Source: Pedobacter frigidisoli
GTDB lineage: Bacteria > Bacteroidota > Bacteroidia > Sphingobacteriales > Sphingobacteriaceae
Assembly (NCBI RefSeq): GCF_004331675.1
Contig: NZ_SJSN01000005.1
Location: 1 to 64,000 of the forward strand
Direction: 5' to 3'
DNA: 64,000 bases
A program made the translations under genes and the position numbers. The first letter of the stretch is position 1. Each line of letters opens with the position of its first letter. The notes beneath the pieces are model-generated. The model saw only the letters and a list, made by a program, of their open reading frames with translations, was not told where the DNA came from and did no database searches. Positions 9,986 to 62,669 of this stretch are shown here, one piece after another.

Positions 9986-10240
9986 AATTGATCTGCAAAA
10001 ATAAGTAATTATTTTTAGTTTGCCGTCAACAGTTTTTCGTTTAACTTTTGCTAGCCAATTAACCTACAACCACGATCTATATTTTAATTTGGAAAGCAAT
10101 TACAGAAGCATTTCGGTTAAAGCAGTCCCGCCCCCATTGCTGCTCCGAAGAAAAATCGGGAGCATCCATTCAGGTCGGGTTTATATTACTCAACTTATGC
10201 AACTATGCCAGTTTCCGTGCGAAAAGCCAAGGTTATCTAG

Positions 10241-10326
10241 CCCTGATTGAAGCGAAGATCATTTTTAGCTGTTCTTCGAAATCACTCAGAACAACACAGT
10301 AAAAAGATCGTAGTGCAAAGCAGGAC
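10241..10326. repeat. Candidate dispersed element with GAAGCGAA and AAAAAGATC arms
   Basis: It begins CCCTGATTGAAGCGAAGATC and ends AAAAAGATCGTAGTGCAAAG plus CAGGAC. The same pair of outer arms, diverged, bounds 46513-46655 downstream of dinB. The interiors differ. Support is two copies only. Confidence 0.45.
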
Positions 10327-10385
10327 GAACGATAATTATTGTACTGCCTATTGCGCTTCAAAAAATTATTAAAGTTAATTAAAAC

Positions 10386-58457: not shown

Positions 58458-60932
58458 TTATTTGCCTTGAAGCTTATCGGCGAACATTTTCATATAAAAA
58501 CCACCTACAACACTACGGGCTTTAAAGTTATCGCGAATACCAGTATTTGAATCATAAAAATCGTTCAATGGCACTCTTGATTCCGTTTCGATTGCATGTT
58601 TATAAACCGGGTGAACCAAAGCCTCAAAATCCTTACGCGTTGGTGCGAAAGTAGCTGTCCACAAAATCCAATCGTTCTTGGTGTAAGCTTTTCTACTATC
58701 TAATGGAATACCGTATCTATTCTGCTTAGTTAAATAATATTTAGTTTCGGTATCATAGATTTTTTGAGGAAACAAGTTCAATCCCAATACCTTGTCCCAA
58801 ACCAAATTATATTTTTGACTCCAAGTATTTTTATCATCAAAAGTTAATGCGTAATGATCACCAGCATCGGCCATATCAATCCATTTTGGCACCATACTTT
58901 CTGCAATTGCTCTATATTTATTGGCTGTTTCGGAGTACCCAAGCGTTTGTGCCATCTGTGCATAACAGGCAATACCAACAATAGCTTTTACCGATAAGTT
59001 TGCGTTTCTAGCCAAGTGACCAGCAAAATCATCCGTACACAATTGCGTTTTTGGATCCAATCCCTCTTTGGTTAAATAATCAGCCCAAGTGGTTAAAGTT
59101 TTCCAGTGCAGTTTAGCGTAGTTTGCATTTCCTTGTGCTTTAGCGATTGCTGCTGTTAGGATAATCATGTTTCCCGATTCTTCCACTGGCATTGGCTCGC
59201 CGTAAGTTTGACCATTCGCCAAAGGATAAGTACCTAAATCATGAGCAGCCCAAGGGTGAGGATATTTTCCGCTTTCACTGAAATAGAAAATACCATTCAA
59301 CATCCCTTGTAATAAAGATGGATTGTAAATTAAATATAACGGCGCCGATGGATAGGTTACATCAACCGTATTAATGAAACCACCACTATTATTTTCTTTA
59401 GATAACCATAAGATTTCTCCCTCAGGACTTTTAACCAATGTGTGCGCTGCGATACTTTGGCGATAACCCAAAATGCAAAGTTCTGCGTATTCTTTTCCGC
59501 CAGATTTTAATGCATCGGCATAAACTGAATTATTGAACGTATTACATTTCTGCATTACTGCAGTATATTGTGTAGCGGCATCTGTTAATTGTCCCTCAAT
59601 AGTTTCCTTACCAGAAGTGTTCCACCAAGGTCTTAAATTCTTTGTAAAATATTGAACGGAGTAGATTTCATCGTAACCTAATTCAACAAATTTTTCCATT
59701 GGCGATTTACCAACAGCACCAAAAGGGATAATGGTATTTAATGAAAGTGCTTTCCCTTGCTTAGCAGTTGATGCAGAATTACCTTTTCTAAAAGCATCAG
59801 CAGCATCTTTTTCTGTGGTTACAAACTGAATCGTATTGCTTGTTTTCGGTGCTGCAACATAAAAATATCCCCAATCAATACGCATATCGTCACTAGCCTT
59901 TTTCAAAATTGGTTGTTCTACTGTTCCAGTTTTTAGAATAGATAGTTTAGCTGTAGCATATTTGGTTGCTGTAACTTCTTGTGATGGACGATAAACAGCA
60001 ATATTAGATGATGCGCTTAAGTAAGCCTTAACCTGATGGGTTTTGTTATCATTAGCTTTTACCTGATAAGTGATGTAAGATACTGGTCTGGCGAACAAAC
60101 CAAGATCGTTCATTAAAAGCGGCGACGTAAATGTTAATTTTAGATCGATTTTACCACACGTAAAGTTATAAATGGTTTGCGTTGCCGTTACATCTACACT
60201 CTTTTGCTTAGCAACTTGTACTTTTTGTGCGTTGTCTTTTTCCTTGTCGACCAATCCGAAATCGAGATATCGACCACCGGCAGTGTTTAACAAGTGGATG
60301 GCAATAACGTTTTCGCCTGACTTTAAAGCACTTTTATCGCTACTACTTAAGGCAATGTACTGGAAACCACTTGTCCAGCCTTCCTTCGAGTAAACTTTCT
60401 TACCATTTAAGAAAACCTCGATATTATCATCGTGATTAATCTTTAAGAAAAGTTCATTTATTGACGCTGGATTGGCAACCGTAAAGTTTCTTCGTACCCA
60501 AATATCATGAGATTTCCATAATGTTTTAACGTTTTTTTCATCATCACCAATTGGTGCAGAACCAGTTTTCCAATTGCTGCCCGAATAACTAAATGCGTTC
60601 CAATCTCCCTGCGGTTGGTTTTCGGTATATTTTACCTCATATCCTTTTTCATCCGAAGTAGATAATACAGTTTTATAGCTAGGCGTTTCTTTTCCTAAGA
60701 AGCGATAAATATTTCCATCGACATTGATTAACCCTAATAAAGATTGATCAGCACCGGTCCAATGGGTTGTTGACGACTCGTTTAACTTATCTGTATTAGA
60801 CCAAATACTGAAATAAGTGTTATGCGTAATTAACGGATAAGACGGCGCCTTTCGTTCTTGCGCCTGTAGTAAACTGCTAATTAAAAGGCAGCTCACCATG
60901 CTCAATAATTTAATGGTTTTGAATTTGTTCAT
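58458..60932 (-). CDS. Secreted glutaminase-family protein (DUF4964/5127/4965/1793 type)
   Basis: An 824-residue exported protein (signal MNKFKTIKLLSMVSCLLISS...AQ). Order: N-terminal segment APSYPLITHNTYFSIWSNTD; an inserted galactose-binding-like sandwich at about 110-225 (IWVRRNFTV...NDDNIEVFLNG-like); a DUF5127-like domain; then an (alpha/alpha) barrel with FWxD-poor but conserved GGFINTVDVTYPSAPLYLIY, YPHPWAAHDLGTYPLANGQT and MPVEESGNMIILTAAIA. Named after fungal glutaminase A, but in Bacteroidota it usually sits in glycan loci, so a glycosidase activity is equally possible. Its own terminator follows. Confidence 0.75.
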   Translation of the reverse strand: MNKFKTIKLLSMVSCLLISSLLQAQERKAPSYPLITHNTYFSIWSNTDKLNESSTTHWTGADQSLLGLINVDGNIYRFLGKETPSYKTVLSTSDEKGYEVKYTENQPQGDWNAFSYSGSNWKTGSAPIGDDEKNVKTLWKSHDIWVRRNFTVANPASINELFLKINHDDNIEVFLNGKKVYSKEGWTSGFQYIALSSSDKSALKSGENVIAIHLLNTAGGRYLDFGLVDKEKDNAQKVQVAKQKSVDVTATQTIYNFTCGKIDLKLTFTSPLLMNDLGLFARPVSYITYQVKANDNKTHQVKAYLSASSNIAVYRPSQEVTATKYATAKLSILKTGTVEQPILKKASDDMRIDWGYFYVAAPKTSNTIQFVTTEKDAADAFRKGNSASTAKQGKALSLNTIIPFGAVGKSPMEKFVELGYDEIYSVQYFTKNLRPWWNTSGKETIEGQLTDAATQYTAVMQKCNTFNNSVYADALKSGGKEYAELCILGYRQSIAAHTLVKSPEGEILWLSKENNSGGFINTVDVTYPSAPLYLIYNPSLLQGMLNGIFYFSESGKYPHPWAAHDLGTYPLANGQTYGEPMPVEESGNMIILTAAIAKAQGNANYAKLHWKTLTTWADYLTKEGLDPKTQLCTDDFAGHLARNANLSVKAIVGIACYAQMAQTLGYSETANKYRAIAESMVPKWIDMADAGDHYALTFDDKNTWSQKYNLVWDKVLGLNLFPQKIYDTETKYYLTKQNRYGIPLDSRKAYTKNDWILWTATFAPTRKDFEALVHPVYKHAIETESRVPLNDFYDSNTGIRDNFKARSVVGGFYMKMFADKLQGK

Positions 60933-61084: not shown

Positions 61085-61755
61085 ATCGAGTAGGAAGATA
61101 GGGATTAGTTCCCTATCTGTCCTCTCACACCACTGTACGTACCGTTCGGTATACAGCGGTTTGTTGAAACAGTATCTCTTGTCAACTGATGATATTCACC
61201 TATTGCCAGGCATTGTGCCCATTGGTTGCACGGCTCGGCTCAGCTCCTCTTATATTTTACTCTCGGATTCCGTCCTACCCTCATATAAGCAGTTCTCTAA
61301 TGTGGTTCCGCTGTAAACGCTCTACCATAAACTTCCTGTTTCCTTTGCCATTTCAACATTTGGTCCTTCCTGCACCCTAAATGCAGTACTATTACCGCTG
61401 CTGACTTCTGAGTGAGCCATTGAACGTCCCCGCCAAATGTTTCCTCTCCTGTAATCGCGCTTACACTCGACAGAACTCATTCAGATCTCCCGGGGTAAGA
61501 CAATTTACTTCCTATGGATGTGGCCTCTGTATATACGTAATAGTCCCCGTGCAGTATTGGGCTTCTGTCTGTTGGGCAACATCACCCGGACTAAATCCGC
61601 CTCATATACAGTTTCTGTTCGTAAGCCCCCATATTTGCCGCAGACTTCTTTCAGATTCGCAGTCACCCACGACACCCTTGTCTCTAGCTAACACTTCCCA
61701 CTGCTAAGCGTGTTCGGGACTCTAACCCTATAGTCGATTGCCATGCCCGGCGCAC
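61085..61755 (-). mobile_element. ORF-less group IIC intron, 671 bases
   Basis: Minus strand. The 5' end is GTGCGCCGGGCATG at 61755. Domain I-III landmarks run to about 61380, ending in CAGAAGTCAGCAGCGGTAAT. Then come about 220 bases without any reverse-transcriptase motif. Domain V is at about 61128-61161 (AACCGCTGTATACCGAACGG then TACGTACAGTGG, with the CGC triad of class C), domain VI is a GATAGGGA/TCCCTATC hairpin with ACTAA loop, and the 3' end is CCTACTCGAT at 61085. The overall pattern matches Oceanobacillus-type group IIC introns. It begins two bases after the terminator T-run of the PKD lipoprotein gene, the insertion rule of this class. Confidence 0.88.
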
Positions 61756-61823: not shown

Positions 61824-62669
61824 CTATGGTTGTTTTTTATTGATGGTCCATTCAGACAATTGGAAAACTGTTGCAGATCTAGTTTGCTTAATATAAAGCC
61901 TGTAAAACTTGTAAGCTACATAATTATCGAAATGGAATAATTTAGTTTGGTTTCTACTTGTTCCAGTATTTGTATTTTCCCACGGGCTAACACTAACTGT
62001 ATGCAGATCTCGGTATTGTATACCATCGGTAGAACCTTGTAGTATCCATAACTTCGGGTCGCGGTCGGCGGCATCATTACCAGAGGTTAAGGTATAAGCA
62101 CCCACCACTTGAGGCGTTTTGAGCTCAAATGTACATCGTTGCGTTCCATCAAAGCCAGCCTGTAAAAATTTCGATTTCGTATCGCCATCTACCAATTTTT
62201 TAGAACCCTCTGCACTATCTGCACCAGGCCCAGCCTCTAAATTTACAGAGAAAATTCCACCTACAGTTTGCATGTAGTTTTCGCCACAAATTGAATAGTT
62301 TATTGTTGGATCAACTACAGTAATATTTATCTCCTGGCTAGCAGAATATCCTTGACCATTTCTTGCAGTTAATACTACATGATATTTACCTGGAAACCTG
62401 TAAACATGTTTAGGTGAAATTTCTACTGAAGTGCTATCATCTCCAAATTGCCACAGTAAAGACTTGTAATTTTGCACATTTGCTGTGAATTGGACTTCAA
62501 GAAACTTTGTTGGATCTGGTAATTTAGTCTCAAATACTACTATTGGCTTAGGCTCTTCAACTTCTTGCACAACCTCTACCGGTTCATCTTTTTTACATTT
62601 TACCGTTAGTACCACGATAAGTAACAAAAGAGATAATACCCCGAATAATCTTTTCATATTATTTTTCAT
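61824..62669 (-). CDS. PKD and F5/8-type C domain surface lipoprotein
   Basis: A 281-residue lipoprotein. Signal KRLFGVLSLLLLIVVLTVKC is followed by KKDEPVEVVQEVEE, an acidic stretch like the Bacteroidota surface-export signal. A PKD domain lies at about 48-118 (YKSLLWQFGDDSTSVEISPK, HVYRFPGKYHVVLTARNGQG). A discoidin (F5/8 type C) carbohydrate-binding-like domain runs from about 135 to the end (KKLVDGDTKSKFL, YTLTSGNDAADRDPKLWILQ, YKFYRLYIKQTRS). It lies 13 bases after the DUF1735/PA14 gene, so they form an operon. A glycan-binding role is inferred. The start could be the ATG at 62669 or 62657. Confidence 0.85.
   Translation of the reverse strand: MKNNMKRLFGVLSLLLLIVVLTVKCKKDEPVEVVQEVEEPKPIVVFETKLPDPTKFLEVQFTANVQNYKSLLWQFGDDSTSVEISPKHVYRFPGKYHVVLTARNGQGYSASQEINITVVDPTINYSICGENYMQTVGGIFSVNLEAGPGADSAEGSKKLVDGDTKSKFLQAGFDGTQRCTFELKTPQVVGAYTLTSGNDAADRDPKLWILQGSTDGIQYRDLHTVSVSPWENTNTGTSRNQTKLFHFDNYVAYKFYRLYIKQTRSATVFQLSEWTINKKQP

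Follow-up and report, generated by a model that had tools for sequence, protein, structure and literature searches.

A group IIC intron family without a reverse transcriptase gene, probably mobilised in trans, behind transcription terminators of Pedobacter

The stretch of Pedobacter frigidisoli DNA analysed here (64,000 nucleotides, hereafter the window; the genome, G000, comprises 5.27 Mb in 60 contigs) contains a 671-nt group IIC intron that lacks a reverse transcriptase (RT) gene and extends from position 61755 to position 61085 on the minus strand (5' GTGCGCC...CTCGAT 3'). This intron is very likely a copy of a non-autonomous Pedobacter group IIC family that is mobilised in trans by the RT of full-length relatives residing in the same genome. 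A first-pass annotation made from the letters alone had proposed that the element either requires a maturase in trans or is a dead copy; comparative analysis favours the former for the family because three species carry the RT-less domain 4 (D4) at terminator sites that differ, EBS1 and IBS1 match, an empty site is available, and RT-bearing partners are present. The kind of element is already known from Thermosynechococcus elongatus.

The ends and completeness of the intron that were originally proposed proved correct: Rfam families covering D1, D2-D3 and D5-D6 all match within it and in the correct order, and full-length homologues are found elsewhere, in the genomes G374 and G150. The D1 region (intron nt 1-285, 61755-61471, with an approximate boundary) includes a match to RF02001 at 61672-61500 (126.9 bits, E 9.8e-26). 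Domains 2 and 3 (nt ~286-396, 61470-61360) match RF01998 at 61441-61363 with 35.1 bits, which is at the threshold of that family, and have an RT-less-type sequence common to the G374 and G150 copies. A focused search with RF00029 (D5-D6) yielded a match at 61161-61085 (43.9 bits, gathering threshold 40, E 3.7e-7), that is, the domain V match on which the first-pass annotation had made its reading depend. Domain 5 (61161-61129) reads ACCGC at 61160-61156 and thus carries the CGC catalytic triad (61158-61156), which is the class C form. In the predicted fold of domain 6 (61128-61085, 3' end GAT), an A at 61091, the presumed branch point, is bulged seven bases before the intron 3' end. As noticed previously, there is no RT gene in D4, which is about 200 nt long and contains in-frame stops; because the autonomous form would encode an RT there, as the relatives do, the element is an ORF-less subtype of group IIC rather than an autonomous class C retroelement. 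The intron is flanked by a GtaA-type glutaminase gene (58458-60932) and by a gene (61824-62669) whose lipoprotein-like product has PKD and F5/8-type-C domains. At 61092-61075 (minus), a short palindrome spans the 3' splice site; it is made up of the intron 3' end TACTCGAT and the first exon bases AATACGAGTA, and a T-rich tail comes after it. With one found against 0.6 expected, it is possibly due to chance. The window also contains, at 10235-10331 on the plus strand, a Flavo-1 RNA (RF01705, 60.1 bits), an RNA of unknown function.

The intron is inserted directly behind the intrinsic terminator of the lipoprotein-like gene, as the initial reading had it: a 10-bp hairpin, also seen on RNA folding, with arms ATACATGAAG and CTTCATGTAT and a run of 8 T (61792-61758, minus) are followed by two G (61757-61756), which are the final bases of the 5' exon, and then by the intron 5' end. 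Four other genomes (G221, G426, G412 and G209; loci L145, L147, L150 and L154) carry this terminator in conserved form with no intron behind it. The class C terminator rule invoked for the window junction holds at that junction and at nearly all related 5' junctions seen. EBS1 (CCAA, intron nt 181-184 in a D1 loop, 61575-61572) pairs at all four positions with IBS1 (TTGG, which closes the 5' exon, 61759-61756), the short pairing typical of group IIC, and the pairing is likewise complete for the copy on contig C5 of G374 (ACGA/TCGT). Over 20 unique combinations, EBS1 and IBS1 score 68.5 out of 80, compared to a mean of 40.9 and a maximum of 60 in 20,000 shuffles (p ~5e-5, a value weakened by the kinship of the copies, for which collapsing to unique combinations is a partial remedy). 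Among the RT-less copies EBS1 varies (CCAA, ACGA, ATGA) and mostly occurs at matching sites, which indicates that different copies have used different targets. Behind another terminator of the window's own genome lies a piece of 136 nt from the 5' end of a divergent intron (L012 1501-1636, 82% identical), apparently a true relic.

The D4 of the window intron (61358-61162) is closed by a 9-bp stem (61358-61350 with 61170-61162). Identity to the RT-bearing copies stops at intron nt 553, and the RT gene is replaced by a stretch of ~40 nt (61204-61164) that is common to all RT-less copies and for which BLAST found no source among RT-bearing introns. The closing stem is formed by TGTTGAAAT and GTTTCAACA in RT-less copies and by TGTTAGGAT and ATTCTAACA in RT-bearing ones. 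In an alignment of 12 sequences, from which the misaligned G390 intron was left out, 108 of 108 cells are paired, with 6 double-sided changes against 2.0 in shuffles (none as high) and 0-3 in slid structures, the latter comparison being biased in favour of the stem because it was derived from the tested sequences. Judged by this covariation, the stem is maintained by compensatory changes. Over the 5' region of D4 (nt 401-550), identity to nyackensis-type and G396-type RT-bearing introns reaches 90-91%, compared to only 63-69% over D2-D3, a pattern consistent with retention of an RT-binding region.

Among 146 Pedobacter genomes, the RT-less form with the common D4 replacement is present in three: one copy in G000, two in G374 and at least seven 3' ends in G150 (apparently P. 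borealis DSM 19626), all at different sites. A whole-genome search located the G150 3' ends on contigs C29, C11, C37, C84 and C146 and at both ends of C3, with unrelated flanks. A single RT-less D4 junction is thus found at about ten different sites in three species and, given the unrelated flanks, the gene loss must have preceded the spread; such proliferation after ORF loss is a mark of trans-mobilised ORF-less introns. A D4 search of 400 order-level genomes revealed no more RT-less copies of the window type, and plasmid records gave only partial matches, none of them covering at least 80% of the intron. The copy on C11 of G150 (L119 1501-2056) has lost part of D3 and D4 by internal deletion, with D5-D6 still intact. 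RT-less forms seem to have arisen more than once, as further RT-less class C introns exist in Sphingobacteriaceae (G390 C26, 886 nt, D5-D6 50.9 bits; G136 C2, ~656 nt), along with shortened remnants in G037 and G142.

One of the two G374 copies, G374_C23, has an empty site in G290, the genome of a sister species, where no intron of the window family was found. The joined flanks are 97% identical over 800 bases and the intron is absent, such that the terminator, T9 and GG are followed directly by the 3' exon (join of TTTTTTTTTGG and TCAAG). The homopolymers in the two genomes differ by one T and one G, and the exact boundary is uncertain to that degree. By this comparison, G374_C23 is a recent precise insertion. 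The G290 site corresponding to the G374 C5 copy is also intron-free; its intergenic DNA is unalignable, and it was not used as a second empty site.

The main alternative, that the window intron is a dead relic, a full-length group IIC intron that lost its RT gene in place and has been decaying since, we consider unlikely. It draws on the presence of a single RT-less copy in the window, with three private substitutions (A57G, G107A and A187G) at sites invariant in the other copies, which may have weakened it, and on the state of the sister copy G374_C23, in which the D5 triad is broken and small deletions have accumulated. Nevertheless, the relic scenario would require that the identical D4 junction was produced by independent deletions at about ten sites in three species, which is very unlikely, and it is further at odds with the EBS1/IBS1 match, with the empty site of G374_C23 itself and with the compensatory D4 stem. 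The window copy itself retains an intact D4 stem, EBS1, D5 and D6, the presumed branch-point A included, and may still be active.

RT-bearing relatives occur in all three genomes that carry RT-less copies (3/3), although all three are draft assemblies and an intact close RT is directly seen only in G374. There, contig C17 contains an intact intron encoding a 445-aa RT (408 bits to TIGR04416, Pfam RVT_1 and GIIM). In G150, a frameshift divides the sole close RT that was assembled into frames of 97 and 316 aa; C64 of that genome carries an intact class C RT, but with only ~50% identity. For the window's own genome, where a search for full-length RT-bearing relatives had been suggested, about five can be deduced from pieces at contig ends: 5' halves on C45, C8, C16, C1 and C5, and 3' halves on C58, C56, C14, C31 and C6, all of which encode an RT C-terminus ~90% identical to the RT of Pedobacter sp. 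Leaf216. Most of these relatives are interrupted by contig ends, as long repeats tend to be, and an intact helper, with its RT core unassembled, is probable from the ends. One of the 5' parts opens the window itself (289-1, minus; RF02001 match at 206-34, 132.4 bits), where the contig start truncates it. It follows the terminator of a gene for an L25-like ribosomal protein (368-952) and is 97% identical to the window intron, the D1 of which shows 96-98% identity to the resident RT-bearing copy. A TIGR04416 search of G000 for a helper RT gave one unrelated short match only, on C36, because the full-length copies are all broken at contig ends; this match is an RT-like frame of 321 aa (L013 1501-1743, C36:7812-8054, 37.7 bits) that resembles group II maturases only weakly and lies outside the window intron family.

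Several features of the RT-bearing introns were recorded in passing. The full-length relative in Leaf216 ends in a tandem D5-D6 duplication (L069 1625-1807), the duplicates enclosing a small segment from the 3' end of the RT. In L052, L069 and L072-L075, a run of at least 8 T, the length of which varies between copies, separates a GGAAGGAG-like ribosome site from the RT ATG, and the frame is open upstream of this run.

Group IIC RNAs can self-splice in vitro, and every ribozyme domain is present in the window intron, which could speak for an autonomous, protein-free self-splicing ribozyme resembling C.te.I1 of Clostridium tetani; we regard this as highly improbable, given that the new insertions observed require reverse transcription and that RT-bearing relatives accompany every set of RT-less copies.

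The RT-less D2-D4 module unexpectedly sits on different D1 and D5-D6 backbones. The copy G150_C29 is 97-98% identical to the G396 RT-bearing intron over nt 1-200, whereas over nt 286-345 and 401-550 it follows the window copy (95-96% identity). Between nt 265 and 274, its informative sites switch from G396-type D1 to RT-less D2-D4. Monophyly of the RT-less copies is rejected by D1 (AU p 7e-6) and recovered by D2-D4 with 91% support. When G150_C29 is removed, the rejection by D1 is not significant (p 0.07), so that exchange with the resident intron in G000 is only suggestive. The C11 copy of G150 shows a D1/D2 switch like that of C29, and the D5-D6 of G150 copies is of the G396 type in several cases and of the window type in C29 and C84. 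Chimeric assembly is an unlikely cause, since C11, a second contig with other flanks, has the same breakpoint pattern. Barring assembly error, the comparison indicates that backbone exchange has occurred, with template switching and gene conversion as candidate mechanisms. That exchange shows some recombination to act on these introns, and one might suppose that the RT-less copies were carried along by larger mobile DNA or spread through homologous recombination rather than by retrotransposition, but the junctions are exact intron ends in unrelated flanks and the empty site shows insertion of the intron alone, which makes such a route improbable in the extreme. A more tentative possibility is a modular parasite, in which resident RT-bearing introns repeatedly supply the RT-less D2-D4 cassette with D1 and D5-D6, perhaps through template switching by the intron RT; the element would thereby remain compatible with whichever helper is resident and acquire a new targeting specificity.

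Under the preferred reading, mobilisation in trans by the RT of relatives, the lineage lost the RT/maturase gene from D4 but retained the ribozyme (D1-D3, D5 and D6), EBS1 and, within D4, the closing stem and the conserved 5' part. Read-through or other transcription would produce the intron RNA, to which the RT of a full-length relative is expected to bind in trans, aiding splicing. By analogy, the resulting lariat RNP would reverse-splice into DNA just 3' of intrinsic terminators, at sites chosen by the terminator motif together with the 4-nt EBS1/IBS1 pairing, and the replication fork would supply the primer for the cDNA, as in other class C introns and in line with the description of RTs that lack an endonuclease (PMC4424553). 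Splicing, RT binding and mobility are thus predicted steps, and the trans supply of RT and the lariat chemistry are proposed from what is known of group II introns in general and from the case of T. elongatus (PMC2882425).

Terminator-associated group IIC introns (Robart et al., 2007, as referenced in PMC4424553; surveyed in PMC8919778) share with the window intron the GTGCG 5' end, the D5 CGC triad, the RF02001/RF00029 architecture, insertion directly after terminator hairpins and a short EBS1/IBS1 pairing, and have an RT without endonuclease like that of the window intron's relatives. The window intron differs from them in the absence of the RT gene and in its D4 of ~200 nt with the common replacement sequence. 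A close parallel is the ORF-less TeI3 of T. elongatus (Mohr et al., 2010, PMC2882425), where a single ORF deletion was likewise followed by proliferation alongside RT-bearing relatives in the genome, with a remodelled D4 and diversified EBS1. For TeI3, mobility in trans by driver RTs was measured, in one genome and with longer target sites, whereas the Pedobacter family, described here by sequence comparison, belongs to class C, is targeted to terminators, and occurs in several species with differing D1 and D5-D6 backbones. The ORF-less C.te.I1 of C. tetani is also a bacterial group II intron without an RT; the C. tetani genome has no related RT (PMC4424553), in contrast to the RT-bearing relatives that accompany the Pedobacter copies. 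A 2015 review considered RT-less bacterial group II introns to be rare and, in general, devoid of retromobility (PMC4424553). We found no class C, multi-species, mosaic RT-less case in the literature searched, which covers few subscription journals.

Judging by the Pedobacter family, class C introns targeted to terminators can also become non-autonomous and yet continue to spread between species. Such spread would represent a route to separate ribozymes served by one common protein, as has been proposed for the origin of spliceosomal introns. Surveys based on RT genes overlook RT-less copies of this kind, and the mosaic copies are natural material for asking which domains have to be recognised by an intron RT.
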